Assembly (NCBI GenBank): GCA_003149065.1
Contig: QGFZ01000002.1
Span: 682,001-746,000 of the forward strand
Reading direction: 5' to 3'
Origin: Ruminococcaceae bacterium R-25
GTDB taxonomy: Bacteria > Bacillota > Clostridia > Saccharofermentanales > Saccharofermentanaceae
Length of the DNA: 64,000 nt
Shown: piece after piece, positions 17,371-34,877 of the stretch
Layout of the letters: every line of letters starts with the position of its first letter
How positions within the stretch are numbered: the stretch's first letter is position 1
Position numbers and translations under genes: made by a program
The notes under the pieces: model-generated
What the model saw: only the letters and a program-made list of their open reading frames with translations
The model's database searches: none
Told to the model about the DNA's origin: nothing

Positions 17371-17376
17371 AGTCTG

Positions 17377-17410
17377 AAACCCCCGTAAACATTGCGTTTG
17401 CGGGGGTTTT
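17377..17410 (+). terminator. Terminator downstream of tRNA-Thr
   Basis: A 14-bp stem (AAACCCCCGTAAAC with GTTTGCGGGGGTTT, one G-U pair) and ATTGC loop, ending in T. A close relative follows attR (29839-29873) and a third lies at 32765-32793. Confidence 0.88.
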
Positions 17411-17453
17411 ACTTTGCCTAGATGCTGCCCTAAAAACATCCTCAAAATGCCGA

Positions 17454-17480
17454 TTTGGTTAACGTTTGGTTAACGTTTTT
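17454..17480. repeat. Left copy of a 27-bp terminal direct repeat
   Basis: Two tandem TTTGGTTAACG units followed by a T run, 83 bp inside attL. The identical 27 bp recur in the same orientation at 29650-29676, 112 bp inside attR. The position suits integrase arm-type binding sites. Confidence 0.75.
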
Positions 17481-17495
17481 ATTTTTTGGATGAAA

Positions 17496-17831: not shown

Positions 17832-17852
17832 ATTATTTATTCCTCCTGTTAT

Positions 17853-18977
17853 TTATGCTGTTTGTGACGACTGTGATGATGTGACGGCTTTATTGCCACC
17901 GTACAAGTGATAAACACCTGCACTATCCTGAAATACAATATCGAACGGATAACACCCTGGTTCTGATTTTTTCTCTGATTCCGGTTCGATCTTGGTAAAT
18001 GTGAAGTGTGTTGCATCGCGTCTGTGATCTCTCATAAAACTGAATCCGAGCTTTGCAAGATCATTCCGTCTGTTCCAAATCTTCCCGCTGATCGACTGAG
18101 GCTTTTTACTTGCTTTTATCAGATTGCAGAACTCTGTGGCAGTACCGTCAAAAGAACCATGTTCCTTTAAGTAATCAAGAGCCTTCTTAAGATCCTCATC
18201 AGTCTGAAAAGCATCTTCGACAGGCGTATTCTCTTTAACAAGTTCCCAATGACTTAACGTACTATTAAATCTGATTGTAAGGATTCGTTCTTCCATATCA
18301 CGGCTGCGAAGGTGAAGTTTCACATCTGTATCAGCTGATTCCTTGCGGAAAATGAACGCTCCGTCTGATGCACCGAACAAACCGTTAGTGCCTAAGATGT
18401 CATCGAACGGGTCAACAGATCTCATCTTGCGCGTGTGATGAACGAGCAGTATCGCTACGTTATGCTCTTCGCAGAACTTATGAAGAGGTGCGATAGTGTT
18501 GTAATCCCCCTGATAAGGATTCTTGGTGTTAATATCTGCTTTGTTCTGTTCGCAACGGATAGCTGCAAGTGTGTCTATGATGAACAGACCGATATCCGGA
18601 TGATCTTTAAGCGCATCTTCAAGTTGTTCTTCCAGGCCGCCGCCGATTGGAGCAGCATCCGTGCTATACATTAATTCTTTTGGGCATTCATTAGCAATGC
18701 TGAACAAGCGGTCCTGCAACCTTTTCTCGCCATCTTCGAGGCAGAGATATAACACTTCTTTTTTCTTGGTGTCATAATTCCAGAGGTTCATTCCTGTGCT
18801 GATACACAAGGCGATTTGAAGTGCCATCCATGACTTACCGACTTTCGCACTGCCACAAAGAAGATACAAACCTTTACCTGGAAGGAAGTGATCGATCAGA
18901 GGATCAATGGTCTCAAATTCCTTGTTAGCCAGGTTGCTGACATTGTCGACTTTGAGAGGTTTAAATTCCTTATTCAT
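17853..18977 (-). CDS. RepA-like AAA_25 ATPase
   Basis: 374 aa. RecA-like core: Walker A in CGSAKVGKSWMALQ (about residues 40-53), LYLCLEDGEKRLQDRL, Walker B FIIDTLAAIR, then AILLVHHTRK and NGLFGASDGAFIF, as in RepA/DnaB-like helicase ATPases of plasmids and IMEs. The C-terminal third is a wHTH-like region. It probably supports replication of the excised element. AAGGAG precedes the start. The last codons encode a Ser/Gln repeat whose DNA (17863-17886) is an inverted copy of 27976-27999. Located between relaxase and xis. Confidence 0.85.
   Translation of the reverse strand: MNKEFKPLKVDNVSNLANKEFETIDPLIDHFLPGKGLYLLCGSAKVGKSWMALQIALCISTGMNLWNYDTKKKEVLYLCLEDGEKRLQDRLFSIANECPKELMYSTDAAPIGGGLEEQLEDALKDHPDIGLFIIDTLAAIRCEQNKADINTKNPYQGDYNTIAPLHKFCEEHNVAILLVHHTRKMRSVDPFDDILGTNGLFGASDGAFIFRKESADTDVKLHLRSRDMEERILTIRFNSTLSHWELVKENTPVEDAFQTDEDLKKALDYLKEHGSFDGTATEFCNLIKASKKPQSISGKIWNRRNDLAKLGFSFMRDHRRDATHFTFTKIEPESEKKSEPGCYPFDIVFQDSAGVYHLYGGNKAVTSSQSSQTA
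17863..17886. repeat. Left copy of a 24-bp inverted repeat
   Basis: Three degenerate TGTGAYGA-like units at the 3' end of the RepA-like gene. The exact reverse complement lies at 27976-27999 in non-coding DNA beside the 31-bp tandem repeats. Confidence 0.7.
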
Positions 18978-18997
18978 ATTTTCATTAACTCCTTGTT

Positions 18998-20395
18998 TTA
19001 TCTTGCTCGACCGCCACGGCTTCTTTGTTTTTGTTGTGACTGAAGCTGTTGTTGAAGTCTTTCGGCATGTTCCAACACCTCGTCGGTCGATATGTAGCAG
19101 TCATCACATATTTTGAGTTCGTGCCGGATATCTGCCATCTCTTGCGAGATCTCTTTTATTTCACGTTTGAGGCTGGTGACGAATGATTGATGCCCGTTTT
19201 TCTCGTGATATCTCAGCCATGAATACCTTTCGTTCTTCTTTTCCTGCAAAGCTTCGAGCTGCCTGTTATACCCGGCTTTTACTTCGGATATTGACCGCTT
19301 GTCGTATACCTCGTGTTTGCAGATGAAATCCAACATCTCGATATAGTGATCTAACTTACGGATATCTTCGCGGATATACATAGAGATGTGTTCTTTTCGT
19401 TTTCGCGGACTGCTGACAAACGTATATAGTTTGAAACAGTACCATCTGAACAAATGAGGCTTGGGTGCTAATTTCTGCGCTGGCGGATCCCACTCCTTGA
19501 TATCGATCTTGTTTTGAGGATGAAGCTGAATGCCCGGAGTTAATGTGTTCTTGATAATCCTTCTGTAAATGGCATCAGTATCATAATCAGGGCCGAGATT
19601 CCTGAATCTGAAATAACCCTTTGCATCAGGCGGTTTTAATCCCGGATATTTTAGCGGCTCATGATTCTTCCCGAAGAACTTAAACTCGTATCCGAGTTCG
19701 TGCATCATTTCGGCAAAATCGTTCCATGAACTGGAGAGTCGGATCGCATAATCGATATCTTCACGGATCGTGCCTCGTACCGTATACTTTCCTTCGCGTT
19801 CGGCTTTCCATTCATCATACGTTTTGCCCTTTGTTGTGGACGGGTTCATGATAACGTTCAGACCGCGTTGACGGCATAAGTTGTCACTGACTTCCTGCAT
19901 GTGGCGGTAATCAGAATTGAACCGCACATACTTATATCCGTCGGCAAATGATACGGAATTCAGCACAAAGTGATTGTGGTAATGACCGGTATTAAGGTGA
20001 GTAGCAACTACCACTTGGAATCTGTCGCCCCACAACTCTTTAGCAAGTTCAACTCCAATCTCGTGAGCTTCTTCAGCTGTGATCTCTCCGGGACCTTCAA
20101 GGAAAGACTGATAACCGTGATAGGCAAGACGTCCGCCTTCTTTGTGCCAGCGCTGCTTTACCTCTATGAATTCTTCAAGAGCTGTATCGGGATCACAATT
20201 AACACCTGTGACATACATCATCTTGTCGGTCTTGTCTTCATTGCAGGCATATCCGAGAACGTCACGGATATGTTTCATGGCCGCATTAGCATCGGGAGCT
20301 TCTTCAGGTCTTTGTGTCGTCTTCTCCGGATTCTCGATATAGTTGAGAACGGTGTCCATACGATTCTTAACAGCCCATATGGATGTTACAGCCAT
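18998..20395 (-). CDS. MobA/VirD2-type relaxase
   Basis: 465 aa. The relaxase domain occupies the first about 300 residues. The three-His metal motif is visible in VVATHLNTGHYHNHFVLNS (HxNTGHxHNHF type), preceded by LAYHGYQSF and followed by the YRHMQEVSDNLC block. The catalytic Tyr is near the N-terminus, possibly VLNYIENPEK. The C-terminus is a long charged coiled coil ending in Gln/Arg-rich repeats. It nicks oriT and leads the strand into a recipient via a helper secretion system. The stop of the MobC-like gene abuts its start codon, so they are translationally coupled. Confidence 0.92.
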   Translation of the reverse strand: MAVTSIWAVKNRMDTVLNYIENPEKTTQRPEEAPDANAAMKHIRDVLGYACNEDKTDKMMYVTGVNCDPDTALEEFIEVKQRWHKEGGRLAYHGYQSFLEGPGEITAEEAHEIGVELAKELWGDRFQVVVATHLNTGHYHNHFVLNSVSFADGYKYVRFNSDYRHMQEVSDNLCRQRGLNVIMNPSTTKGKTYDEWKAEREGKYTVRGTIREDIDYAIRLSSSWNDFAEMMHELGYEFKFFGKNHEPLKYPGLKPPDAKGYFRFRNLGPDYDTDAIYRRIIKNTLTPGIQLHPQNKIDIKEWDPPAQKLAPKPHLFRWYCFKLYTFVSSPRKRKEHISMYIREDIRKLDHYIEMLDFICKHEVYDKRSISEVKAGYNRQLEALQEKKNERYSWLRYHEKNGHQSFVTSLKREIKEISQEMADIRHELKICDDCYISTDEVLEHAERLQQQLQSQQKQRSRGGRAR

Positions 20396-20614
20396 TTAGT
20401 TACCATCCTTTCTTATTGTCTGACCAAAGTGCGATGGGGTAGTGGAACCATCCCGGTATCCTGTGATGCTCCTGCCGATTAACAAGCTCCTTAAAACTTC
20501 TGACCGGGACAGACCGGACTCTTCAGATTTCTTCTTCAAGAGTTCTGCTTCCTCAGGACTCAGCATCACTTTAAACTCGATTGTCCGCTTCCTGTTTGGC
20601 TTGATTCTCATCAT
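20396..20614 (-). CDS. MobC-like relaxosome accessory protein
   Basis: 72 aa with a ribbon-helix-helix pattern: basic strand RKRTIEFKVMLSPEEAELL then KKSEESGLSRSEVLRSLL. This matches small plasmid mobilization accessory proteins that help the relaxase open oriT. AAGGAGG is ideally placed. It is the first gene of the minus-strand mobilization operon, directly upstream of the relaxase and next to the oriT candidate. Confidence 0.88.
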   Translation of the reverse strand: MMRIKPNRKRTIEFKVMLSPEEAELLKKKSEESGLSRSEVLRSLLIGRSITGYRDGSTTPSHFGQTIRKDGN

Positions 20615-20639
20615 TAAATTTCCTCCTTGGGATGAAATT

Positions 20640-20860
20640 TGATTGAACGCATCTTGCGTTCCTCGGGGTCTCAGGGGTCGCTCCCTGACAAGCTTTGTAT
20701 TTTCGTGTTCCCGAAAATACGTTGCTTGCTAATACAAAGATCCACTTCGTGGGGCGGTAGAGTTTGGGTCAAGCCGCAAAAAACAGACCGCAAGTTTGGT
20801 ATAGTTTTCCTTCATTGCAGTTTTGGTGTTTTCCGTAAATAGGCCGACTTATACTAACGC
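20640..20860. other. Probable oriT region
   Basis: Non-coding DNA directly upstream of mobC-mobA with dense inverted repeats. TCAGGG/CCCTGA lies at 20671-20688. TATTTTCG/CGAAAATA (20698-20719, perfect 8 bp) is nested within CTTTGTAT/ATACAAAG (20693-20739). Two CCGCAA-containing repeats follow at 20774-20800. This position and structure are typical of oriT; the nic site cannot be fixed from sequence. Confidence 0.6.
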
Positions 20861-20925
20861 ACAAGCACGACCGCTTTTGCGAAAAAACTGTTTATGTTGT
20901 AGTGGATCCTTGTAGCTTCCAGGAA

Positions 20926-21036
20926 CTATCCCGGGCCACTGGGTTGGATCAGATCCGGCAGGATGGGAGATTGCAATAAAGACAGCAGGATCATAACTAC
21001 TGTTTCACGTCTTTTATATCCCATTGTCTTAAACAT
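20926..21036 (-). CDS. Possible 36-aa small protein
   Basis: Minus-strand frame from ATG 21036 with GAGGTGAGAG upstream: starts MFKTMGYKRRETVVMILLSL, a short basic N-terminus then a hydrophobic stretch, ending in a Pro/Gly-rich tail. It lies in the non-coding span between the oriT candidate and the restriction gene. The ribosome binding site and hydrophobic profile support it, but length is too short for certainty. Confidence 0.35.
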   Translation of the reverse strand: MFKTMGYKRRETVVMILLSLLQSPILPDLIQPSGPG

Positions 21037-21334
21037 TTCTCTCACCTCGCTTTCTCTGGTAAGTTATAAGAACTTATGTTCGGTTATGTACGGTTAGATT
21101 ATATGAGGGTAGAAAACGGTATGCAAGCCTTGTTTTTCAAGGTGTCCCATAAATGGAACAGGTGGATAAAAGTACGATTAATGGAACTATCTGCCTGAGA
21201 TAATATAAGTTTATTTGATCATATTTGTTTTAGGAAAACATTCAGAAAAGACTGATTAATCGAATTCGGTCTTAATCTTTTTTGATATATAATTTATTCA
21301 TAATGGTAATCGCTTTTCACGGAAGGAACGTAAT

Positions 21335-24115
21335 ATGGCTATCAATCATAAAGCGGCAAAAGAATTTGCAAAGCGTTGGGCTGGAAAAACTTGGTCTGAA
21401 GATCAATTTGCTGGTGTGTTTTGGATTGATCTACTTAAGTCGGTTTATGATATCGAGTGTAATGACACTAGTAATGTAATATTTGAATACCGAACTAGTG
21501 CAAGCGGCAAGATTGATCTATGGCTGCGAAATCTTTCTACTATGGTTGAGATGAAAAGCTCAGGCGTAGATCTTGATAAGCCTGAACTCCGTCAAGGTGA
21601 GATGAAGACACCATTTAAGCAGGTTTATGATTACGCCGTAAGCTTTCCGCGAAGTGAACAACCAGATTATCTTATTACCTGCAATTTTGAAAAGTTCCGA
21701 GTTTATAGCAGAAAAGAATATGGTGATCTTAATCTTGAAAGTAAAGCTCAAGAGTTTACTGTAGAAGAACTCGGTGACAAGCCTGAATATCTAAGCTTCT
21801 TAATTGATCCTCAGAACAGTCGTTTATATCATGAACGAGAAATATCTGAGCAGGCCGGTCAGTTGATTGGCAAACTCTACGATATGTTGAGAGAACAGTA
21901 TATAGATCCGGACTCAGAAGATTCTAAGCATTCGCTTAATGTTCTTTGTGTTCGTCTAGTGTTCTGTCTTTTCTGTGAAGATGCTGGGCTTTTTAATGAA
22001 ATGGATGCTTTTTATAATTTCCTTAAGGACGTTCCGGCTTCGAATATAAGGATTAATCTTCAGCGGTTATTTAAGAACCTTGATATTCCAAAAGAGAATC
22101 GTGATAAATATGATGAAGCTATTAGAGTTTTTCCATATGTAAATGGTGGTTTGTTCCGGGAGGATGTTGAAATCCCTAATTTTACCAATGAAATCAAGTC
22201 ATTCCTGCTGGATGAGCTTTCTCAAAGTGTTGATTGGTCTAAAATATCTCCAACTATTTTTGGCGGTATCTTTGAATCTACTTTAAATCCAGAGACCCGT
22301 CGTAAAGGTGGAATGCATTATACTTCTCCAGAAAATATCCATAAGGTAATAGATCCGTTGTTCCTGGATGATCTTAAAGCTGAGTTCGAAGCTATTAGAA
22401 CAGATGAAGAATTATCAGTAATTAAGAAAAGGAATAAATACAGAAAGTTTCACGAGAAGCTTTGCTCGTTGGTTTTCTTTGACCCCGCGTGTGGTTCAGG
22501 AAACTTCCTTACGGAGACGTATATCTGCCTGAAACAACTTGAGTATGCTGTCCTTAAAGAATACAAATCAAAGCAGATGTCGCTTTTTGATAGTAGTGTC
22601 GAAGGCGAAATAGAGTTGAGGGTTAAGCTCGATCAGTTCTACGGTATTGAAATAAATGATTTTGCTGTATCAGTAGCGGAAACGGCTCTCTGGATTTCAA
22701 GGTTAAAATCAAACAAAGACTATATGCTTTTGCTTGACCTAGACGAGAAAGACTTCCCATTGGACGAACGCGCTAATATCATCTGTGATAATGCTTTGAG
22801 ATTCGATTGGAATAACCTTATTGAACCATCGAGAGTGTCTTTTATCATTGGTAATCCACCCTTTGCTGGAGCAAGGTGGATGACAAAAGAACAAAAAGAT
22901 GATTTGATTTCAGTTTTTGGCTCAAAATGGAAAAACGTTGGTGACTTAGATTATGTTTGTTGCTGGTATAAGCTTGCTACAGAATATATGAAAGGGAGTA
23001 GCATCAGATCGGCATTTGTCTCAACAAACTCGATAACTCAAGGTGTTAGTGTAGTAAATCTATGGAAACCGCTATTCGAGCAGGGCATACATATTGATTT
23101 TGCATATCAAACATTTATTTGGGACAGTGAAGCATCAATAAAAGCCCACGTTCACTGCGTAATAGTGGGATTTAGTTATTACTATCAAGGCACAAAGAAA
23201 ATATACAATGGTAGTGCTGTCTGTGAGGTCAATAACATAAATGGATATCTGTTAGGGACCGATGATGTTTTTATTGAAAAAATGTCAAAACCGATCTCAA
23301 ATGTACCGCCGATAAGCTTGGGTGGACAGGCAATAGATGATGGAAATCTAATATTATCAATTGAAGAAAAGGATGCATTGCTTAAAAAAGAACCTCAAGC
23401 AAAAGCCTTTATAAGGCCATATATGATGGGAAAGGACTTTATTGAGAGACGTCCAAGGTATTGTCTGTGGTTAGTTAATGCTGATAAGAATACATTGAAT
23501 GCGTGCCCCTCAATACTTGATAGGATAGATCGTGTATTAAAATTTAGGCTTTCTAGTTCACGAGACAACACATTAAAAGCCGCTAAGGAACCGGCTTTGT
23601 TTGCCACGTGTTTAGAATTATTCAGCAACTATATTGCTATTCCCAAAGTGTCATCTCAAAATAGGAAATATATTCCAATGGATTATCTAACTCCTGATAT
23701 TATTCCCGGAGATAAGCTTTTCACTATGCCAGACGCAACAGAATATGAGTTTGGTGTACTAATGTCAATTGTACATATGGCTTGGACAAGAGCAATAAGT
23801 GGCAGATTAAAGAGTGATTACAGTTATTCAAATACATTGGTATATAACAACTTCCCTTGGCCAAACCCTACCAATGAACAGAAAGCTATCATAGAGCAAA
23901 CAGCCCAGGGAATACTCGATGCGCGTGAGTTGTATCCGGGCAAGAGTCTCGCTGATCTATATGATCCCGATAAGATGCCTGAAGAGCTCCGTATCGCACA
24001 CGAAGCAAACGACAAGGCTGTTATGGATGCTTATGGGTTTGCGAGTGATATGGGTGAACCTGAGATTGTTGCAGAACTGATGAAACTGTATCAGAAACTG
24101 ACAGAACAGCACTGA
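21335..24115 (+). CDS. MmeI-like single-chain restriction-modification enzyme (type IIG/IIL)
   Basis: 926 aa. The N-terminal nuclease domain has a PD-(D/E)XK pattern, KIDLWLRNLSTMVEMKS (D-x10-EMK, about residues 56-72). A helical connector follows, then an adenine-N6 methyltransferase: motif I FFDPACGSGNFLTETY (about 381-396), FYGIEINDFAVSVAETAL and motif IV IIGNPPFAGARW. The C-terminal about 300 residues would be the target-recognition domain. One polypeptide would thus both methylate and cut, using SAM. All catalytic motifs are intact. GAAGGAA precedes the ATG. It is the first cargo gene after oriT, followed after 19 bp by an HNH-like gene. The recognition sequence cannot be read from the protein. 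Confidence 0.9.
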   Translation: MAINHKAAKEFAKRWAGKTWSEDQFAGVFWIDLLKSVYDIECNDTSNVIFEYRTSASGKIDLWLRNLSTMVEMKSSGVDLDKPELRQGEMKTPFKQVYDYAVSFPRSEQPDYLITCNFEKFRVYSRKEYGDLNLESKAQEFTVEELGDKPEYLSFLIDPQNSRLYHEREISEQAGQLIGKLYDMLREQYIDPDSEDSKHSLNVLCVRLVFCLFCEDAGLFNEMDAFYNFLKDVPASNIRINLQRLFKNLDIPKENRDKYDEAIRVFPYVNGGLFREDVEIPNFTNEIKSFLLDELSQSVDWSKISPTIFGGIFESTLNPETRRKGGMHYTSPENIHKVIDPLFLDDLKAEFEAIRTDEELSVIKKRNKYRKFHEKLCSLVFFDPACGSGNFLTETYICLKQLEYAVLKEYKSKQMSLFDSSVEGEIELRVKLDQFYGIEINDFAVSVAETALWISRLKSNKDYMLLLDLDEKDFPLDERANIICDNALRFDWNNLIEPSRVSFIIGNPPFAGARWMTKEQKDDLISVFGSKWKNVGDLDYVCCWYKLATEYMKGSSIRSAFVSTNSITQGVSVVNLWKPLFEQGIHIDFAYQTFIWDSEASIKAHVHCVIVGFSYYYQGTKKIYNGSAVCEVNNINGYLLGTDDVFIEKMSKPISNVPPISLGGQAIDDGNLILSIEEKDALLKKEPQAKAFIRPYMMGKDFIERRPRYCLWLVNADKNTLNACPSILDRIDRVLKFRLSSSRDNTLKAAKEPALFATCLELFSNYIAIPKVSSQNRKYIPMDYLTPDIIPGDKLFTMPDATEYEFGVLMSIVHMAWTRAISGRLKSDYSYSNTLVYNNFPWPNPTNEQKAIIEQTAQGILDARELYPGKSLADLYDPDKMPEELRIAHEANDKAVMDAYGFASDMGEPEIVAELMKLYQKLTEQH

Positions 24116-24134
24116 GCATTCCGTAGAGTAATTT

Positions 24135-24950
24135 ATGACATCAAAGAAAGAAATTACAGGAAAGTGTCGGATATGTGGAAAGGAAGGTAAACTGACTTTC
24201 GAACACATTCCTCCCAGAGCCTCATACAATAAACAATCGGTCAAAACAGTAAAGCTTCTAGACGTAATTGAGGCTGAAAACAACGAGAATATTATGCCTT
24301 GGGAGTTGGAACGAATTCGTTCTACAATCTCACAGCGCGGTAGAGGGGAATATTGTCTTTGTGAAAGCTGCAACAATAATACTGGTGCTTGGTATGGCGT
24401 TCATTATAAGAGGTTTGCTGATGCTTTAATGCGCGTTTGTGTGTCGGTCAAAAAGGCTGATGCAAAAAGTGCAAAGTTCGAACTAAAGGATATGCGGCCG
24501 CTGCCGATTTTTAAACAAGTAATAGCTATGTTTTGTGACATAAATACTGCACTAACAGATAATGATCCTTCTTTAAGAGAATATCTTTTAAATAAGGAAT
24601 CCAAAACGCTGGATACGAGCAAATACCGAGTCTTTATGTACTTAATGACAGGCGGAATCGAAAAAACAGCTGGAAAAACAGCCTTATTACAGAAAGGCAA
24701 TCCGACACCTATTGTGTTATCTGAAATATCTACGGTCCCGGTTGGATTTATTTTATTTGAGGACTTACCTAAAGATTATCAAACGACACTGACGGAAATA
24801 ACAAATTTCGCTGATTGTAGTTATTCGGATTCTGGAAGCATAATTTTAGCTTTAAATGCCTTTGAGATTAATTCTGTATTTCCTGGTGATTTCAGAAGCA
24901 AAGATGAGATTAAATCGACCATCGAAAATAGTAAAAGTAACCATCAATGA
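24135..24950 (+). CDS. HNH-like zinc-binding protein linked to the MmeI-like gene
   Basis: 271 aa. The N-terminal CRICGKEGKLTFEHIPPRAS and a second pair in YCLCESCNNNTG form a zinc-stabilised HNH-type fold (HNH_5-like, about residues 9-85) with a catalytic-type EH. The remaining about 180 residues are not recognised. It follows the restriction gene closely (19 bp), so is likely co-expressed. It may be an endonuclease effector or accessory; that is inference. A near-identical copy of its last 33 codons plus downstream sequence sits outside the element at 29990-30132. Confidence 0.7.
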   Translation: MTSKKEITGKCRICGKEGKLTFEHIPPRASYNKQSVKTVKLLDVIEAENNENIMPWELERIRSTISQRGRGEYCLCESCNNNTGAWYGVHYKRFADALMRVCVSVKKADAKSAKFELKDMRPLPIFKQVIAMFCDINTALTDNDPSLREYLLNKESKTLDTSKYRVFMYLMTGGIEKTAGKTALLQKGNPTPIVLSEISTVPVGFILFEDLPKDYQTTLTEITNFADCSYSDSGSIILALNAFEINSVFPGDFRSKDEIKSTIENSKSNHQ

Positions 24951-25037
24951 GCATGATATAATGACCGTATCCAAGGGTGATTCTTGGATCAGATAATAAG
25001 CAGTTAACCTTACTAAGCTTTGGGCGGAGAGTATTTA

Positions 25038-25712
25038 ATGACTGTTATTGCCGATATCAGGATATACAGATGTACTGTTGAAAATGTCACCGGAGTATGG
25101 CCGGAAGGATTTGCCAGTAAAGAGTTGAATGCCGTTGCCAGAAGAATCTGTATGAAGCTTAGAGAAAACAATTTCTCTATGGGAGACTTCAGTCATCTCT
25201 ACATCAATTTGAGCACATGTCTTGCTGAAGGAGAAGTTCAACCTGCAAACAAAAGTCCTGACAGGTATCACCCGTGGTACCGTTATTATGATGTCGGTAT
25301 CAGCCGGTCATTATATGACAGTCTTGAAACACCAGACTGCATCCCGGTTGTTTCCGGATTGATAGAAAAAGTCTTGAAAACACAATTCAGCACACCGGAG
25401 TTTGACGGAGAAAAGATCTCGGCTTGTGTTTCAGAAGCAGTCACACAAGGAGCTGACATGCTGATGAAGTTCAAGGAGAAGAGATCTTCACAAAGAAGAG
25501 CCGTCCTTTATTTGAGATATCTTGATAATTGCAAGCATTTCCCTTTGCTAAGGGTTTACGATAACGACGATAATATTGTCTTTGAAAGGGATCTTCCTGA
25601 ATCTCATACCTTGGATGACTATGGCCAGATCACCGTGAGTTCGAAAAAAGTTACCATAAGACCAAGGAAGAACAGCTGGACGGATGGTGAACCTATCGAG
25701 TTCATTCTATAA
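25038..25712 (+). CDS. Unknown protein in the restriction cargo cluster
   Basis: 224 aa from ATG 25038, preferred to a TTG six codons upstream because GGCGGAGA is spaced for it. No domain recognised. Visible traits: many aromatic residues near YHPWYRYYDVGISRSLYDS (about 76-94), a probable helical middle, then a beta-rich C-terminus (RVYDNDDNIVFERDLPES). Soluble, no signal peptide. An extended -10 (24954-24962) in the preceding gap could start an independent transcript. It sits between the HNH-like gene and an EamA transporter, so a defence-accessory role is possible but unproven. Confidence 0.65.
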   Translation: MTVIADIRIYRCTVENVTGVWPEGFASKELNAVARRICMKLRENNFSMGDFSHLYINLSTCLAEGEVQPANKSPDRYHPWYRYYDVGISRSLYDSLETPDCIPVVSGLIEKVLKTQFSTPEFDGEKISACVSEAVTQGADMLMKFKEKRSSQRRAVLYLRYLDNCKHFPLLRVYDNDDNIVFERDLPESHTLDDYGQITVSSKKVTIRPRKNSWTDGEPIEFIL

Positions 25713-25848
25713 ATCATCAGAAGTGCTGAGGGGTGAAATAGTTCTATATAATCAACAGTTTTATAGACGATGACAAATCGGGATTTATCTTAGAGATAAT
25801 TGATGGACGAGAATTACCAGAATATATGACAATGAATAAGGGGAAGAT

Positions 25849-26715
25849 ATGTGGCTGATCATGGCGGCTTTATCCGCGCTCTTTGCCGGACTTACGGCGA
25901 TACTTGCGAAATGCGGGATCAAAAAGACTGATTCAGACGTGGCGACTGCTCTGCGGACGGTCGTTGTACTCCTTTTTGCCTGGATCATGGTGTTTATCGT
26001 TGGCTCTGCTGGAACGATCACGGAAATATCGGCAAAATCTATCATCTTCTTAATTCTGTCCGGCTTTGCGACAGGAGCCTCGTGGATCTGCTATTTTAAA
26101 GCCCTGTCCGTCGGCGATGTGAACAAGGTCGTTCCCGTCGATAAATCCAGCACGGTTCTGACAGTGCTTATCGCAATCATCCTTTTCAGTGAGACAGAAC
26201 ATCTGGCGGTCAAGCTGATCGGTACTGCACTTCTTGCGGCAGGCGTGTTTCTGATGATCGAAAAGAAGAAAACTGAAGCAAAGGACACAAAGCGCACGTG
26301 GCTGCCCTACGCGATCGGTTCCGCTGTTTTTGCTGCCCTGACCTCTATTCTGGGAAAGATCGGCATAACGGATGTAGAATCAAATCTCGGGACGGCGATC
26401 CGTACTGGTGTTGTTCTTGTTATGGCTTGGCTGATCGTCTTCGTTAAAGGCAAAGGTGCTGAACTGAAAAATACTGATTCCAAAGAACTTGTATTCATAG
26501 CTCTGTCCGGGATTGCCACAGGCGCATCATGGCTCTGTTACTATTACTCCATACAGAACGGCGTCGTCAGCGTTGTCGTACCGATCGATAAGCTCAGCAT
26601 TATCGTTTCCGTCGCTTTTTCCTATTTCGTATTCAAAGAAAAGTTGAGCAGAAAGGCGCTTGCCGGGTTGATTCTGATTGTTGTCGGCACTTTGGCGATG
26701 GCGATCTGGGCATAG
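25849..26715 (+). CDS. EamA-family (DMT) transporter
   Basis: 288 aa with ten membrane segments in two repeated halves. Both contain the ATALRTVVVLLFAW / GTAIRTGVVLVMAW and SGFATGASWICYFKAL / SGIATGASWLCYYYSI blocks, showing internal duplication. Drug/metabolite transporter superfamily; substrate unknown. GGGGAAGAT precedes ATG 25849. Codon use is GC-richer than the neighbouring island genes, suggesting a different origin within the cargo. Confidence 0.88.
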   Translation: MWLIMAALSALFAGLTAILAKCGIKKTDSDVATALRTVVVLLFAWIMVFIVGSAGTITEISAKSIIFLILSGFATGASWICYFKALSVGDVNKVVPVDKSSTVLTVLIAIILFSETEHLAVKLIGTALLAAGVFLMIEKKKTEAKDTKRTWLPYAIGSAVFAALTSILGKIGITDVESNLGTAIRTGVVLVMAWLIVFVKGKGAELKNTDSKELVFIALSGIATGASWLCYYYSIQNGVVSVVVPIDKLSIIVSVAFSYFVFKEKLSRKALAGLILIVVGTLAMAIWA

Positions 26716-26857
26716 GAAACAAATAACGGCAAATTCAGATTTGTCGAGATGATCGTTAGAACATAATATCCTGAATATAATCGACCAAGACAGGCGTTCA
26801 ATTCCCCTCAGAAACGTGAATGGGTCTCATTTGAAAGACCTAGTCAAAAACAAACAG

Positions 26858-26893
26858 ATACCGCTTGATCTGAATGGATCGGGCGGTATTTTT
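26858..26893 (+). terminator. Terminator downstream of the EamA gene
   Basis: ATACCGC (26858-26864) pairs with GCGGTAT (26883-26889), with an inner GATC/GATC extension, then TTTTTG. Confidence 0.75.
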
Positions 26894-26897
26894 GTAA

Positions 26898-26906
26898 TGG
26901 TATAAT
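26898..26906 (+). promoter_or_regulatory. Extended -10 promoter for the HAD gene
   Basis: TGGTATAAT, 35 bp upstream of ATG 26941; no clear -35. Confidence 0.55.
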
Positions 26907-26940
26907 TGGATTGTCAGTAAGATAAATCAGAAGATAAATT

Positions 26941-27612
26941 ATGGAGAAAACAATGATCAAGGCTTTGTTTGTGGATTTTTATGGCACTGTTGTCCATGAA
27001 GATGGCGCAGTCATTAAGGTGATAACTCAGATGATCAAAGATACCGGTGACGGGTCTGACACATCTGAGATCGATTCTTTCTGGTGGACTGATTTCCAGA
27101 CGATGTTCCTTGATTCATTTGGCATTGCTTTTGAGACTCAAAGGGATCTTGAGAGGAAATCATTGGAACATACAATCGTAAAATTCCATTCTTCGGCAGA
27201 TGCTTCAAAGTTAAGTGACATGATGTTTGAACATTGGATGAGGCCGCCGATATTTGAAGAATCCAAAGAGTTTTTCAGTAAATGTCCTATCCCGGTCTAC
27301 ATTGTTTCCAACATTGATACATCTGACATTATGTGTGCAATTGAATACCATGGTCTTAATCCGGCCGGCGTTTTTACATCCGAGGATGCAAGATCATATA
27401 AACCTCGAAGGGAACTGTTTGAACTGGCACTTAGCAAAACCGGGCTTATGCCTGACGAAGTTATTCATATCGGTGATTCAATAAACAGTGATGTTAAAGG
27501 CGCTTCTGCTCTGGGGATCGGAACTTTGTGGCTTAACAGATTCGGAAAGGCTGTTCCGGAGGGTGTTACAGACATAAAAGATCTTCTTGAGTCATTAGCT
27601 GTTATCAGTTGA
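26941..27612 (+). CDS. HAD-family phosphatase
   Basis: 223 aa. HAD motifs: I DFYGTVVHEDG (DxYGT variant with nucleophile Asp), II VYIVSNID, III lysine in YKPRRELFE, IV HIGDSINSDVKGA. A helical cap lies between I and II, placing it in subfamily IA (YjjG/L-2-haloacid dehalogenase-like). Substrate unknown. Own extended -10 promoter and terminator, so an independent cassette inside the element. Confidence 0.85.
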   Translation: MEKTMIKALFVDFYGTVVHEDGAVIKVITQMIKDTGDGSDTSEIDSFWWTDFQTMFLDSFGIAFETQRDLERKSLEHTIVKFHSSADASKLSDMMFEHWMRPPIFEESKEFFSKCPIPVYIVSNIDTSDIMCAIEYHGLNPAGVFTSEDARSYKPRRELFELALSKTGLMPDEVIHIGDSINSDVKGASALGIGTLWLNRFGKAVPEGVTDIKDLLESLAVIS

Positions 27613-27638
27613 TCTAATCCCGAATATAACCTACTAAG

Positions 27639-27662
27639 CTCCCGAGATAATCGGGAGTTTTT
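27639..27662 (+). terminator. Terminator downstream of the HAD gene
   Basis: CTCCCGA (27639-27645) / TCGGGAG (27651-27657), then TTTTTA. Confidence 0.88.
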
Positions 27663-27680
27663 AATTGCAAAACAAAATTT

Positions 27681-27717
27681 ATTATAGGTTGAATTATAGC
27701 TACAATCTAACTATAAT
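27681..27717 (+). promoter_or_regulatory. Promoter and likely autoregulatory operator of the Phd-like antitoxin
   Basis: TTGAAT (27689-27694), exact 17-bp spacer, TATAAT (27712-27717). An imperfect inverted repeat (ATTATAGGTTGAAT at 27681-27694 against ATCTAACTATAAT at 27705-27717) spans both hexamers. That is where a Phd/YefM antitoxin would bind to repress itself. Confidence 0.75.
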
Positions 27718-27739
27718 ATCTAGCAAGGAGGTAAGAAAT

Positions 27740-27958
27740 ATGTTGATCAGTACCGATACTTTAATATCAATAACGGAAGCAAATCAGAATTTTTCAAAGG
27801 TTGCCAGGCTTGTAGATGAGAAGGGTGCAGCTGTAATCATGAAGAATAATGCACCCAAGTATATTGTGATAGAGTTCAGTAAAATACCTGAAAGCGCAGA
27901 AGTAGCCGATAAAGCAGCTGTAACTTTAGCAAAGAAGTTGATCAGTGACAAAAAGTAA
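27740..27958 (+). CDS. Phd/YefM-family antitoxin, orphan
   Basis: 72 aa from ATG 27740 with AAGGAGG correctly spaced. ISITEANQNFSKVARLVDEKGAAVIM and PKYIVIEF match the Phd/YefM DNA-binding fold. The C-terminus, where a toxin would be wrapped, is short (KAAVTLAKKLISDKK). No RelE, YoeB or Doc-type toxin frame follows: the next 505 bp are non-coding. It could be a solitary transcriptional regulator or a remnant of a toxin-antitoxin pair. Confidence 0.85.
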   Translation: MLISTDTLISITEANQNFSKVARLVDEKGAAVIMKNNAPKYIVIEFSKIPESAEVADKAAVTLAKKLISDKK

Positions 27959-27975
27959 ACCTATATCAAAATAGT

Positions 27976-27999
27976 CGTCACATCATCACAGTCGTCACA
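27976..27999. repeat. Right copy of the 24-bp inverted repeat
   Basis: Exact reverse complement of 17863-17886, here in non-coding DNA just after the antitoxin gene. Confidence 0.7.
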
Positions 28000-28052
28000 G
28001 AATTGTTCCTTCAAGTAGAAAAGTAATCACTCAAGATAATGAGACCGGCAAT

Positions 28053-28114
28053 TACGAGTTGAGAACAGTGGCATTCAAAACTCTACGAGTTTAGAACACC
28101 ACCATTCACAACTC
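28053..28114. repeat. Two tandem 31-bp direct repeats (iteron-like)
   Basis: Each unit begins TACGAGTT, continues through AGAACA and CATTCA, and ends AACTC. The units are 28053-28083 and 28084-28114, with a few mismatches. A third partial unit (TAC) follows. Located with the 24-bp repeat in the non-coding span before the integrase. Binding sites for RepA-like or integrase proteins are plausible. Confidence 0.75.
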
Positions 28115-28168
28115 TACATTAGTGCGCGTTTCTATTCTTCCGCGCTACCGCTTGGATTGCCACCCACA

Positions 28169-28194
28169 ACTTGAGAGGACGTTACCTCTCAAGT
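28169..28194. repeat. Perfect 10-bp hairpin in the pre-integrase region
   Basis: ACTTGAGAGG / CCTCTCAAGT around ACGTTA, followed by a GC-rich stretch and another hairpin CTTTTAG/CTAAAAG near 28259-28278. The whole 27959-28463 span has no credible gene and may be an origin or integrase control region. Confidence 0.65.
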
Positions 28195-28463
28195 CGCGGC
28201 TGGCGGGACCTGGAATTGAATATTTAGACCGCAGGCTATGGCCCGCCCGCGCGGCTTTTCTTTTAGCTAAGCCTAAAAGAGACTCACAGATGTTAGAAAG
28301 GATAGATAGGGGTGTGGGGAAAGGAAGGGAAACGCTAATTTACACGCACGCGTAATACGGAAAGAATATATGTACGCAAATGTCAAATGAGGGACATTAA
28401 TAGGACATGGTGCGAGTTATACTTAAGCAAATAGTTATTTGAAGATGGATAGGAGGGATAGTA

Positions 28464-29648
28464 ATGCATATACAGAAAAGACAAGGAACATATAGAATTA
28501 CTGTTAGTTGTGGTCGAGATGAATCAGGAAAGCAAATACTATGCACAACTACTTTTGCTCCGCCTAAGGGACTAACTGAGAAGCAAGAGAAAAAGGCTCT
28601 CTATGAGTTTGCTGATAAATATGAGCGCAAGATCAAGGGCGGTGCTTCTGCAAATTATAGCAAGATGACTTTCAAGTCATTTTGTCTAGATTACTATTAT
28701 AAAAACCATCTTGAGACTTTAAAGCCTAAGACAGCAAATGGTTATCGAGCCGTTATTGAATCTCGTCTTATTCCGTATTTCGGTAATATGAGAATTAAGA
28801 ACATTACACCTTTAGATGTTCGTGGGTGGATGGCAAGTTTAGAGAGAAAAGACGGGAAAGATAAAGATCTTTCCCGCAATAGTACCGGAAGTTGGTTTAG
28901 GACCTTATCCGCTATTTTAGGAAAAGCTTATGAGTGGGAGATAATAGATGAAAATCCGTGTAAACGAGTAAAATCGCCTACTAATACTCAACCTGATGTA
29001 GAAGCACTACAGCTTTCTGAAGTACAAACTATATGTGATAAGCTCCCGGAATATGATGACATTAGAGCCAGAACTTTCATTATGCTGATCTTGAATACAG
29101 GTATAAGAGAAGCTGAAGCAGCTGGGTTGGAATGGCGAGATATAGATTTCGATGATGGTGTAATATCGATAAGAAGAACATCACAGTATATTCCCGGTCG
29201 TGGAATGGTTGAAAGCACTCCTAAAAGTAAAACATCAGTTCGAGATATACCGATATCTCAGGATATGGTTAATGAGCTGGTCAAATATAAGATCTGGCAG
29301 AGGAAAGTGATAAAAGACCTGGGATCCGTGTATGAGGGTAATCCCGGTGAGGAAGCTCGGTTGTTTACATCGTGGAACGGGAAACCAATTTTCGATAGTA
29401 CTTTAAGAAAATGGCTGACAAAGTTTTTGAAATGGTGTGATCTGCCAAGAGTTACAGTTCATGGATTGCGACATACTTTTGCCAGCTTATTGATTGCAAA
29501 TGGAACGGATGCAAGAACGACAGCGGCACTTTTAGGACACAGTTCTCCGGCTCTTGTTATGAATGTATATGCCAACCCTCAAGACGAAGCAAAGGCGAGA
29601 GCGGTCGACAGTTTGAGTGGCTTAATTAAACGAAGAAAAAAGAGGTGA
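28464..29648 (+). CDS. Tyrosine site-specific integrase
   Basis: 394 aa, Tn916/phage-type integrase that drives the element's integration and excision. It has an N-terminal arm-binding AP2-like domain (IQKRQGTYRITVSCGRDESG), then a core-binding SAM-like domain (PKTANGYRAVIESRLIPYFG). The catalytic domain has Arg I in NTGIREAEAAGLEW, the HGLRHTFASLL box, the LLGHSS block and the nucleophile Tyr in VMNVYANP. All catalytic residues are present. AGGAGGG precedes ATG 28464. It lies beside attR, reading toward it; the stop abuts the right 27-bp direct repeat. Confidence 0.95.
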   Translation: MHIQKRQGTYRITVSCGRDESGKQILCTTTFAPPKGLTEKQEKKALYEFADKYERKIKGGASANYSKMTFKSFCLDYYYKNHLETLKPKTANGYRAVIESRLIPYFGNMRIKNITPLDVRGWMASLERKDGKDKDLSRNSTGSWFRTLSAILGKAYEWEIIDENPCKRVKSPTNTQPDVEALQLSEVQTICDKLPEYDDIRARTFIMLILNTGIREAEAAGLEWRDIDFDDGVISIRRTSQYIPGRGMVESTPKSKTSVRDIPISQDMVNELVKYKIWQRKVIKDLGSVYEGNPGEEARLFTSWNGKPIFDSTLRKWLTKFLKWCDLPRVTVHGLRHTFASLLIANGTDARTTAALLGHSSPALVMNVYANPQDEAKARAVDSLSGLIKRRKKR

Positions 29649-29649
29649 A

Positions 29650-29676
29650 TTTGGTTAACGTTTGGTTAACGTTTTT
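29650..29676. repeat. Right copy of the 27-bp terminal direct repeat
   Basis: Identical to 17454-17480, same orientation, beginning 1 bp after the integrase stop. Confidence 0.75.
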
Positions 29677-29788
29677 CCAAAAAGATACAAAAAAGTGCGT
29701 GAACATATGTTCGGATAACGCCCCGCAAACCCAATAAAATCAAGGCTTTGCGTTAGTTTTTGAAAAGTTATAAATTGTGGGGGAATCC

Positions 29789-29834
29789 ATTTGTAATCAG
29801 CAGGTCGTGGGTTCGAGTCCCACAAATGGCTCCA
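29789..29834 (+). repeat. attR: 46-bp tRNA-Thr 3' fragment
   Basis: Exact copy of 17325-17370. No 5' half of a tRNA precedes it, so it is an attachment scar, not a functional tRNA. Confidence 0.93.
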
Positions 29835-29838
29835 TAAA

Positions 29839-29873
29839 GAAAACCCCGTAAACAATGCGTTTGCGGGGCTTTT
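29839..29873 (+). terminator. tRNA-derived terminator after attR
   Basis: AAAACCCCGTAAAC / GTTTGCGGGGCTTTT-type stem around AATGC. It is likely the original chromosomal tRNA-Thr terminator displaced by the insertion. Confidence 0.75.
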
Positions 29874-31969: not shown

Positions 31970-32749
31970 ATGGATAACACTTTAGTTTATTCGATAATCA
32001 CTACGGTCAGTGCTATCGCATTTCTTGTGGGAACAGTCCTGTTGATCGTATCGATAGTTTTCACTGCAAAGGGTAAAAAACCATTTGTTGCAGGAATCAT
32101 TTGCGGCGCTTTGATCGGTTTTTGCGGAATGATTTTTTTCGTATACGGATTATTTGGACAGCTTATAATCGGAATAAACACTATGGTCAGCAATATACCT
32201 GCAGTGACAGAGTTTACTCCTGCCGAAGGCTCTAGACCAATCTCTGGGACGTTTAAGATCGATGGAGATGAAGTCACGCTTCCTTGTACCGTTGATGATC
32301 TGACTAAATTGGGGTACGACACGGATTACGAGTATTTCGACGGATATATTATGCTGTGGATATTTGGCAGCGATAATACGCATTACGATGCTCCGCAGTT
32401 CTTTGTGTATTTAGACAGAAGCTACGGTTATGACAGCTATGCCCATACAAGAGGTTTTGACCAGGTCGCTGCTGTAAAAATCAGAAATGATATGGGAATC
32501 GGGTTTGAACTGAATGACATTGCATTCGGTATGACTAAAGAAGATTTTATCGCGCAATACGGAACTCCTGCTTATGAGATCGATAATTCGTTCTATGGCG
32601 ATAGCCTCTATTATCTTGGCGATAACGGTGTCATCTACAGGCTTAATTTCGGAAGTGTTGATGGGAATGGGAATCTTGTACTTGTTGGGGTTATGGTTGG
32701 AACTTCTGAATACATGGAGCGGGAGATGACGGGTCTTTATCATATCTGA
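31970..32749 (+). CDS. Hypothetical membrane-anchored protein
   Basis: 259 aa. Two membrane segments (about residues 7-30 and 40-65) precede an extracytoplasmic beta-rich domain. That domain includes FKIDGDEVTLPCTVDDLTKLGYDTD (a polar/aromatic motif found in some Clostridia lipoproteins) and MTKEDFIAQYGTPAYE. No catalytic site recognised. Its stop codon (32747-32749) overlaps the start of the third att-like sequence, so the insertion boundary fixed its end. AGGGGCAGG-type ribosome binding site. Confidence 0.65.
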   Translation: MDNTLVYSIITTVSAIAFLVGTVLLIVSIVFTAKGKKPFVAGIICGALIGFCGMIFFVYGLFGQLIIGINTMVSNIPAVTEFTPAEGSRPISGTFKIDGDEVTLPCTVDDLTKLGYDTDYEYFDGYIMLWIFGSDNTHYDAPQFFVYLDRSYGYDSYAHTRGFDQVAAVKIRNDMGIGFELNDIAFGMTKEDFIAQYGTPAYEIDNSFYGDSLYYLGDNGVIYRLNFGSVDGNGNLVLVGVMVGTSEYMEREMTGLYHI

Positions 32750-32824: not shown

Positions 32825-34387
32825 TTAGCCGAGTCCTTCGATCGTGTCGGAATAGTCAATAAAATGCTTTATTGCCCTGATGCTTTCCATGGTAAGGCTG
32901 CCTGAGGTAACGCAGCCGTCTTTTTTCGATGCATATACCACCTCTCCATTACCGACGTAGATTGCAACAATACCGGAGTCATAGACAACTACATCGCTGA
33001 CATGAATAGAATTTATCGGTGTTGAGTCATATGAGCCGTCGAAACCGGCACATATTTCTTCAGCAGTTGCTCCCATGCCCACAGAAAAGTAATACTTATA
33101 GCAATACGCTACAAAACCCACTTCATCAAAACCTTTATCCGGGAAATCGCCGCCGGCTGCATACGGGGTGCCGATGAGATCCTTTACGTATATTGCGAAG
33201 TTTTTGGGACCGTCTACTTCCTGATTCCACAAAGGACCGGTCTCATTTTCTGCGGGTTTATCCACAATATATTCTGTTTCAGTTGCCTTTGTTTCTGTAA
33301 CATCTGCTTGTGTCTCAGTTGTTGCCTTTGTTTCCTGTTCGTTCAGGTTATCGGGACTTACACCGTTTGTTTTCGGGTTTAAAGAACATCCCGCACCGAT
33401 AACGAGCAGAACTGCGGTAATAATAACTGCTGTGGCAGTCTTACCCTGTTTAAAACTGATTATATTTTTCACTCTGTTTGTAACCTCCGTTTTGCTGAAA
33501 TTGACTTTGCTGAATCCCAACGGTGTTACCAGATATCTTTTGGCGTTGCTCTTCTTTGCGAATGAAACGATCGACATTGTATAGGACTGCTTCAGATCAG
33601 CATCCATTTTTGACACGACGCTCTCATCGCAGCTCATCTCGATATCCTGTTCGAAAAGTTTGTAAGCAAGCCATACTAACGGATTGAACCAGTGAACGGC
33701 AACAGCGAACATGCCGATGATCTTGATAAGCCAGTCACCGTGTCTTATATGGGTCCTCTCGTGAAGCAGAACATATTCTTTCTCGTTTTTATCGAGAACG
33801 TCAGGTAAATATATCCTGGGTACCAAAAGACCGAAAACAAACGGTGCACTGATCTTGTCAGATACATAAACATTGCCGCCTATTTTTCTCGCGCTGCTTA
33901 GTTTTCTCTTAAGTAAGATGAATTGGACAGAACAAAAAAACGTAATGCCCAAAGCAACAATAAGCCATACTGTTGAGAGTATGATCTTGATATCAGGTAA
34001 CGGATCTGCACTTACAAGGTTTTTGGCAAGAGGCTCATTCCCCATATTAACGGCCGGTTCAGCAAGACTGATATCCTGCCTCTCTTTATTTGCAGCATAA
34101 TCTGCTGTTACAGTTCCTGTATCAGCAAAAGTGTCAGGTGTGGCTGCATCCTGAACCTGTGAAGTAGCAGTTAAGGTTTGTGTCTTCAAAGGAATCAGGT
34201 TAAAGAAACTGAGTGACGATTCAAAGCTGACGGGTACAAGCAACCTGAAGGCCACAACAGCCCAAAGGATCATGACAAACCTCTTGGATCTTTTCTTAAG
34301 AAGGAATCTGGCAAGCACGGTAATAAGGATTACGATGCTTCCCGTAACAGACATCTCAAGAACTTTAAGGAATAATCCGTCCATCAC
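32825..34387 (-). CDS. BlaR1/MecR1-family M56 peptidase with a degenerate NlpC/P60-like sensor domain
   Basis: 520 aa. Four membrane segments with the M56 zinc-protease site VLLHERTHIRHGDW (HExxH, about residues 208-221) between them, as in BlaR1/MecR1, which cleave the BlaI-type repressor on signal. After the last membrane segment (about 320-338) and a Thr/Glu-rich linker the C-terminus is not a penicillin-binding domain. It looks like NlpC/P60 (IGTPYAAGGDFPDKGFDEVGFVAYCY ... HVSDVVVYDSGIVAIYVGNGEVVYAS). The catalytic Cys position of the usual FDCSGFV is Glu and the His position is not His. Likely a binding-only wall-fragment sensor. Overlaps blaI by 4 nt. Confidence 0.85.
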   Translation of the reverse strand: MMDGLFLKVLEMSVTGSIVILITVLARFLLKKRSKRFVMILWAVVAFRLLVPVSFESSLSFFNLIPLKTQTLTATSQVQDAATPDTFADTGTVTADYAANKERQDISLAEPAVNMGNEPLAKNLVSADPLPDIKIILSTVWLIVALGITFFCSVQFILLKRKLSSARKIGGNVYVSDKISAPFVFGLLVPRIYLPDVLDKNEKEYVLLHERTHIRHGDWLIKIIGMFAVAVHWFNPLVWLAYKLFEQDIEMSCDESVVSKMDADLKQSYTMSIVSFAKKSNAKRYLVTPLGFSKVNFSKTEVTNRVKNIISFKQGKTATAVIITAVLLVIGAGCSLNPKTNGVSPDNLNEQETKATTETQADVTETKATETEYIVDKPAENETGPLWNQEVDGPKNFAIYVKDLIGTPYAAGGDFPDKGFDEVGFVAYCYKYYFSVGMGATAEEICAGFDGSYDSTPINSIHVSDVVVYDSGIVAIYVGNGEVVYASKKDGCVTSGSLTMESIRAIKHFIDYSDTIEGLG

Positions 34388-34755
34388 TTTCCACCTTCCA
34401 TATTTTCCTTAATGAGTTTCATCAGCTCATCGGCTTCCTCATCGCTCAACGTTTTCTTATTGCCGAAAAAAGCTGCCACAAACTTTGGCAGGGAACCGGA
34501 GAAACTGTCTTCAATGATCTGATTGCTCTCCGATATCAGTACTTTTTCCTTGGGAATAAGAACTCTCACGATCGTATCCTCATTTGAGACAAAACCTTTT
34601 GCGATCAGCTTGCGAAGAACAGTATATGTAGTTGACTTATTCCAATTGATACTGTCACCTGCGATCTTCACCAGCTTGCCTGACTCAATAGGTGCTTCCT
34701 GCCAGATGATCTCCATCAACTTTTTTTCAGCTTCAAATAATACTAATTCTTCCAT
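34384..34755 (-). CDS. blaI: BlaI/MecI-family repressor
   Basis: 123 aa. Winged helix with LMEIIWQEAPIESGKLVKIA, NKSTTYTVLRKLIAKGFV (recognition helix) and a C-terminal dimerisation/cleavage region. GAGG precedes ATG 34755. It overlaps the BlaR1-like gene by 4 nt, the usual blaI-blaR1 arrangement. Two dyads upstream (34777-34820) are probable operators, so autorepression is expected. No beta-lactamase gene is adjacent, so the regulon beyond the pair is unknown. Confidence 0.92.
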   Translation of the reverse strand: MEELVLFEAEKKLMEIIWQEAPIESGKLVKIAGDSINWNKSTTYTVLRKLIAKGFVSNEDTIVRVLIPKEKVLISESNQIIEDSFSGSLPKFVAAFFGNKKTLSDEEADELMKLIKENMEGGK

Positions 34756-34776: not shown

Positions 34777-34820
34777 TGGTTTAATGTGTTAAACCACAGT
34801 TAGTTTAATTCGATAAACCA
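34777..34820 (-). promoter_or_regulatory. BlaI-type operators
   Basis: Perfect dyad TGGTTTAA-TGTG-TTAAACCA (34777-34796), and a second imperfect one around GTTTA...TAAAC (34803-34818), centred about 24 bp apart. Both lie upstream of blaI. Confidence 0.75.
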
Positions 34821-34877
34821 GAAGAGTCAAGGGCAAAAATGTGGCGAAATCTGAGTGCTGCTGCTGATTATCATTCA

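Follow-up and report, generated by a model that had tools for sequence, protein, structure and literature searches.

How does a receptor with the protease half of BlaR1 receive a signal when its C-terminal domain resembles an NlpC/P60 hydrolase without the catalytic residues? This question is raised by a gene in the window, by which we mean the whole stretch of 64,000 nucleotides analysed here, that starts with GTG and encodes a protein of 520 amino acids (32825..34387, minus strand, as are all parts of the receptor given below). According to its reading frame and Pfam matches, the product combines an M56 receptor with a C-terminal pseudo-NlpC/P60 domain. Among solved structures, the M56 part is closest in sequence to Staphylococcus aureus BlaR1, and the C-terminus to NlpC/P60 proteins.

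The Peptidase_M56 domain together with its transmembrane helices comprises residues 8-309 (33461..34366), with a PF05569 score of 160 bits against a Pfam cut-off of 31 (E 9e-47). For S. aureus BlaR1, H201ExxH, Asp210, E242xxxD and Tyr261 are reported as key residues and Ser283-Phe284 as the bond of self-cleavage (PMC9834060). The window receptor contains the zinc motif HERTH at residues 209-213 (33749..33763), and H209, E210, H213, D218, E250, D254, Y269 and F292 are identical in 33/33 aligned receptors of the family, which thus all carry HExxH and ExxxD. In the alignment these positions are shifted by +8 relative to BlaR1 H201, D210, E242, D246, Y261 and Phe284, with the same spacing, and the bond in register with Ser283-Phe284, Gly291-Phe292 (33512..33517), is the predicted site of self-cleavage. 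Arg305 is likewise invariant among the aligned receptors, yet it lies off the +8 position of BlaR1 Arg294. The sequence-only reading of this locus, which had described the M56 half as intact, is borne out here: judged by its sequence, the protein is a member of peptidase family M56 with zinc and self-cleavage residues in place.

By analogy with BlaR1, a long extracellular loop, EL1, is predicted at residues 53-128 (34004..34231) between the predicted helices 35-50 and 133-164. TM4, placed at residues 313-335 by sequence and model (33383..33451), ends in GAGC, and the codon of Cys334 (33386-33388) stands in a lipobox-like context. This cysteine, whose role in the lipobox is putative, is kept in 14 of the 15 NlpC-type receptors and in 26/33 overall. 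A signal-peptidase cut at Gly331 is reported for S. aureus BlaR1 (PMC9834060), so the sensor might be released or lipid-anchored. TM4 is followed by a Thr/Glu-rich linker with low pLDDT (residues 336-388; 33224..33382).

The remainder of the chain, residues 392-512 (32852..33214), was assigned to a pseudo-NlpC/P60 sensor domain by Pfam, an AlphaFold model and structure matches. The Pfam match to NLPC_P60 covers residues 406-494 (E 9e-5 with the whole protein) and scores 22.8 bits with the whole protein, with a cut-off of 23, and 24.8 bits with the C-terminal piece alone. The full-length AlphaFold model, built from 22 sequences, is poor outside this domain (mean pLDDT 57.6, pTM 0.37), with block means of 77-96 for residues 391-510. 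The top Foldseek matches are NlpC/P60 structures (best 7v6t, E 2.5e-6, TM-score 0.84 by target length), with BlaR1 8exs lower in the list (E 0.008). In addition, VIA-align returned 7cfl with Z 17.6 (rmsd 1.8 over 114 residues) and RipD (PDB 4jxb) with Z 15.4 (rmsd 2.1 over 113 residues). The resemblance to NlpC/P60 put forward from the letters alone thus extends to the predicted structure, and the C-terminal domain is modelled with the papain-like fold of this family.

In the alignment, the catalytic Cys, His and His positions are occupied by Glu422 (codon 33122..33124), Ile473 and Tyr485, respectively, with FDEVGF at the site of FDCSGF in live NlpC/P60 domains. The earlier assignment of a Cys-to-Glu change in FDEVGFV was therefore correct for this gene, and, judged by its residues, the window receptor is not an NlpC/P60 endopeptidase. 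Moreover, it is not a BlaR1 beta-lactam receptor: NCBIfam blaR1_generic scores 102 bits against a cut-off of 400 in a match that ends at residue 330.

Relatives were taken from a search of 115 family genomes, among the fetched loci, with G008:C10, G084:C6 and G014:C30 included. In these loci, a C-terminal NlpC-like domain is present in 14 further M56 receptors, each from the same genus, within which the fusion is conserved by sequence. Among the 16 domains of the 15 receptors, counted without L044, a duplicate row of the window gene, the Cys position holds Glu in six, Asp in four, Asn in three, Ser in two (both domains of L022), Gly in one (L014) and Cys in none. Relatives retaining the Cys-His pair, named beforehand as the outcome that would speak against a dead sensor, were thus looked for, and Cys was found in 0/15 receptors. 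The Cys-to-Glu change is not fixed in the homologues, as only 6/16 domains carry Glu; what the homologues have in common is the loss of Cys. Likewise, the absence of His holds for the window gene and ten of the 15 receptors, namely the Glu, Gly and Asn types, but not for the five receptors of the Asp and Ser types, which keep the first catalytic His.

Domains found with the same profile but without an M56 half present Cys-His-His in 18/19 cases, or 18/18 when intact ones are counted. The lone exception belongs to G014 and is a remnant of an M56-NlpC receptor locus (L165 4646-5291) that retains a single operator dyad, TM4 and a dead-NlpC frame that is still open, but neither blaI nor the M56 half; it could represent decay or a single-pass derivative. 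In the own genome, Cys and His are present in five of six other NlpC/P60 matches; of four weaker matches inspected separately, three keep both. The one match lacking both in each count is L051 (568-1866; G000:C2 ~580115), a dead NlpC-like domain of 20.9 bits, under the Pfam cut-off, in a frame of 433 amino acids that by eye is a predicted single-pass membrane protein with SH3-like repeats and no M56. A clean rule by which receptors are dead and stand-alone domains live is broken by L051; hence, the loss of Cys is a typical but not an exclusive trait of the receptors. L018 and L020 (by Pfam, at scores below cut-off) and L021 (by alignment) have an SH3-like stretch ahead of the dead domain, which counts in favour of the sensor circuit proposed below. 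The receptor of G020 recurs unchanged in the goat-omasum MAG RGIG2731.

In a class-level sample of 391 genomes, the 30 fetched M56 loci, five of them from the own genus, gave zero NlpC matches; this count applies to the fetched loci, a minority of the M56 matches, so that M56-NlpC fusions outside the genus could have been missed, as they could beyond the matches listed at the order level (188 genomes). Our searches of an open-licence library showed no report of an M56-NlpC fusion. A review of M23 hydrolases mentions M56-M23 architectures in passages that name no M56-NlpC fusion (PMC9662197). These architectures are alike in joining M56 and a peptidoglycan hydrolase domain on one chain and differ in that M23 is not NlpC/P60, with the catalytic state and BlaI left unstated in these passages (PMC9662197).

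The dead domain shows dN/dS below 0.5 in 10/11 pairs, which are not independent of each other. In the seven of 11 pairs with dS >0.4 the values range from 0.19 to 0.48; the four close pairs, with few changes, gave 0.32, 0.39, 0.43 and 1.00. Comparison of the L011 and L014 DNA in bins of 60 bases revealed 95-100% identity over the M56 half, up to base 1020; the first linker bin, which contains gaps, has only 40%, and the sensor beyond has 70-92%. The G014 remnant is a mosaic with the linker of one of these alleles and the sensor of the other. The pattern looks like recombination that swaps sensors between alleles. In a tree, the dead NlpC domains form two groups (support 56/76, and 85/85 without the catalytic columns), and a single clade was not rejected (p-AU 0.19).

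The receptor gene overlaps by 4 bases a gene for a BlaI-family repressor of 123 amino acids (34384..34755, minus strand; PF03965 E 9.8e-19, 68.3 bits against a Pfam cut-off of 22.6), in agreement with the BlaI partner named in the sequence-only reading. A blaI gene of this length is present at 15/15 NlpC-type loci. Upstream of it we noted a promoter-like sequence TTGACT-17-TAAACT for the blaI-receptor operon (34802..34830, minus strand), which is a consensus match only. With two such matches observed in the scanned region against 4.6 expected, the match alone is weak, and it is the placement that bears the argument. Two unstranded tandem palindromes of the form GTTTA-N6-TAAAC, 24 bases apart, lie here: operator 1, TAGTTTAATTCGATAAACCA (34801..34820), across the spacer and -10 of the promoter, and, just downstream, operator 2, TGGTTTAATGTGTTAAACCA (34777..34796), over the expected transcription start. 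The repressor would bind both. Membership in the BlaI family is indicated by the winged-helix repressor profile PF03965 and by the dyads at its own promoter, both of which are present, and the layout of the operators over this promoter appears autoregulatory.

The tandem operator precedes blaI without mismatch at 14 of the 15 NlpC-type loci and with one mismatch at L022. Across the genus it occurs in 36/85 genomes, with 0/85 in the backward-read control. A tandem search with up to 3 mismatches and 8-base spacing identified one site each in 11 of the 15 genomes and missed G089, G088, G054 and G053 because the operator spacing there is 9 bases; its backward control, with the same tolerance in 15 genomes, gave one match, in G053. 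The search for other BlaI operator copies, proposed from the letters, yielded no second tandem operator in the own genome with the patterns used, which marked only its own promoter. Single dyads with up to one mismatch are not enriched in the own genome (8 forward and 5 reverse vs 8 and 8 backward), and the single dyad was rejected as a marker of a regulon, having no excess over the backward control. Exact single dyads in the 15 NlpC-type genomes fall at blaI promoters, except G000 C2:177973 and G020 C40:31746, which alone carry no meaning since the backward control gave 8 matches in all. There are none in G053 and an extra set in G084, at a second blaI-receptor pair.

The classical BlaI/MecI operator is a TACA-type dyad, unlike the GTTTA-N6-TAAAC of the window. 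Allowing one mismatch, the classical site TACANNTGTA was counted 23 times in the window against 19.7 expected, with none at the blaI promoter; another BlaI-M56 pair of the own genome, on C3, bears TTCTACACATGTAGAA. Six BlaI proteins and, from seven matches, six M56 proteins are encoded in the own genome. A search for the GGTTTA dyad at the remaining five pairs gave no match, and different palindromes were seen at two of these pairs. A linked effector gene was considered and dropped, as beyond the pair no family recurs in more than 4/15 neighbourhoods, which were compared over 5 to 20 kb each, some ending at contig ends. With the own tandem as the only one and no recurrent neighbour, no response gene is indicated.

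The window also contains an integrative element in tRNA-Thr(TGT), at about 17325-29840, with the 3' end of the tRNA repeated beyond a tyrosine integrase (28464-29648). Its cargo comprises a MobA-type relaxase, an AAA protein, an MmeI-type IIG restriction-methylation enzyme, an EamA transporter and a HAD hydrolase. An integrase with 99.7% identity to the one in the window is present in G088 (L114 914-2095), another species of the genus, and this tRNA-Thr end occurs there too, located a few hundred bases upstream from the blaI-receptor pair.

Several known systems share parts of this arrangement. BlaR1/MecR1-BlaI/MecI has the partner blaI gene in the operon and the C-terminal sensor after TM4, and the M56 features reported for it (HExxH, Asp, ExxxD, Tyr and the self-cleavage Phe) recur at +8 (PMC9834060). 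It differs from the window receptor, in which Pfam detected NLPC_P60 as the only C-terminal domain and no class D beta-lactamase-like sensor. RipD (Rv1566c) is not known as a receptor. It resembles the sensor in having an NlpC/P60 fold with replaced catalytic residues; binding of peptidoglycan, however, is reported for RipD (PMC12067865) and only predicted for the window receptor. Cyanobacterial PetP-PetR likewise consists of a BlaR1-family protease and a BlaI-family regulator and responds to a signal other than a beta-lactam, there copper (PMC7896320). Unlike for the window pair, its target genes are known, and no enzyme-derived sensor is described in the passages on this pair (PMC7896320). 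RipD thus provides a precedent for a dead, peptidoglycan-binding NlpC/P60 domain, and PetP-PetR for a BlaR1-type protease acting on another signal. BlaI_1845 of Clostridium thermocellum is similar in that its reported regulon is one operon, its own, with blaI and blaR1, and differs by two further genes in this operon (PMC8457756).

The C-terminus varies among sister receptors that have a related M56 half under the same operator, which looks like an exchange of inputs. The C-termini of five receptors, namely L003 (own genome, different operator), L024, L031, L032 and L168, can be aligned with each other. A Pfam scan that covered L024, L003 and L031 placed L024 at the cut-off of two alpha/beta-hydrolase families and L003 below cut-off, with no match for L031. 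The modelled L003 domain (mean pLDDT 73.5, pTM 0.79) best matches feruloyl esterases (E 1e-12, TM ~0.6), followed closely by lipases and other hydrolases. Our placement of the G-x-S-x-G elbow by alignment gives GQDLG, GHHAG, VDDIG, GHQTG and GHQAG for the five receptors, i.e. Ser in 0/5. By sequence and model these represent a second class of dead-enzyme sensors, esterase-like and without the nucleophile, and the GTTTA tandem operator is present at L024 and L168. The six BlaI-M56 pairs of the own genome (G000 C1, C2, C3; L169-L173) differ in their C-termini, two of which appear solute-binding-like by eye, with no Pfam match at E 0.01. The convergent neighbour of the window receptor gene (31970-32749) shares a domain with the sensor of the L167 receptor (27% over 134 amino acids, E 5e-8).

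In the classical BlaR1 system, the sensor resembles the enzymes under its control. Of nine tandem sites in the genus that lie away from M56 matches, we looked at six. At four, the gene that follows encodes a secreted protein of about 610-640 amino acids; L122, the only one of them run against Pfam, combines LRR with a transglutaminase-like domain. At the other two, the gene is lipoprotein-like, and one of these, L121, shares 39-44% identity with the C-terminal region of three sister receptors. Judging from these six sites, the operator marks other genes in some sister species, one kind of them sensor-related. A broader reading, in which the BlaR1-BlaI chassis of the genus serves as a plug-in receptor, with pseudo-NlpC/P60 domains for peptidoglycan and pseudo-esterases for plant-wall esters acquired separately and exchanged by recombination over a conserved repressor and operator, is conceivable, though we regard it as doubtful.

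Taken together, the observed architecture, the loss of catalytic residues, the conservation, the selection on the domain and the operator layout lead us to favour, tentatively and at slightly short of an even chance, a two-gene circuit resembling BlaR1-BlaI with a pseudo-hydrolase as sensor and a stem peptide or muropeptide as the most likely ligand. The loss of the catalytic residues in the receptor and its relatives indicates that the domain probably senses and does not cut. The receptor would span the membrane as BlaR1 does, with the zinc protease in the cytosol and the NlpC/P60-fold domain outside, and BlaI would occupy both palindromes of its promoter. The ligand that may then enter the dead active site is most likely a stem peptide of peptidoglycan or a muropeptide with L-Ala-gamma-D-Glu; its binding would shift the sensor relative to the membrane, which would activate the protease; cleavage of BlaI by the activated protease would derepress the operon.

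The choice of ligand draws on YkfC, in which the S1 residues Tyr226, Asp237 and Ser239 are reported to be the most conserved besides the catalytic ones and to hold gamma-D-Glu (PMC2954226). The counterpart of Tyr226, Tyr409, is kept in 15/16 receptor domains and that of Asp237, Asp421, in 16/16, which makes a stem-peptide ligand plausible. The counterpart of Ser239 is Val in the window receptor, Ser only in L022 of the 15 receptors and Thr in three. An acidic residue at the Cys position, found in ten of the 16 domains, might repel a carboxylate ligand; the Glu or Asp could equally prefer an amine. Against the favoured circuit stand, besides this acidic residue, the rarity of Ser at the position of Ser239, the lack of a recurrent neighbour and of a second tandem, L051, and the fact that the conserved part of EL1, the loop through which BlaR1 signals, is common to sister receptors with other sensors. 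On account of this sharing across sensor types, EL1 was rejected as a pocket-specific plug and is not evidently matched to the NlpC pocket.

The shared part of EL1 also favours the notion that the dead domain is only a wall anchor or spacer, with the signal entering via the EL1 loop, membrane stress or elsewhere. This notion gains from the varied residue at the Cys position (E, D, N, S or G) and from RipD, a non-catalytic NlpC/P60 protein that can bind the wall without signalling (PMC12067865). However, the different C-termini on a related M56 half with the same operator look like input exchange, and the pocket Tyr and Asp are kept, so that we consider a mere anchor unlikely. Alternatively, the domain may be a decoy that senses a protein, e.g. 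a secreted inhibitor or competitor factor aimed at the cell's own NlpC/P60 hydrolases. Such a complex of an inhibitor with a live NlpC/P60 enzyme exists (8i2e, LytE with IseA), and a protein ligand would go along with the swapping of sensors between the L011 and L014 alleles and in the G014 mosaic; but this shuffling fits drift or changing ligands too, and no partner gene recurs nearby, which leaves a protein ligand rather improbable. That the domain retains other chemistry, with Glu, Asp or Ser replacing Cys, might be read from the acidic or Ser residue in 12/16 domains and the first His kept in 5/15 receptors, but it is opposed by Gly in L014, Asn in three further domains and the absence of both His from the window gene; with no NlpC/P60 enzyme known to work with any of these replacements, we regard it as very improbable.

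Nature offers 15 such sensors on related protease halves, in which the Cys position varies among E, D, N, S and G, and these form a ready test series; the case also separates what the BlaR1 chassis needs (M56, EL1 and BlaI) from beta-lactam chemistry. If the favoured circuit is true, it would sense cell-wall fragments directly across the membrane of an anaerobic Clostridium, and receptors of the BlaR1 type would constitute a general route from enzyme to sensor. If, in addition, the doubtful plug-in reading were true, the ligand of such a receptor would be predictable from the enzyme ancestor of its sensor, and BlaR1 would then exemplify a more general rule.
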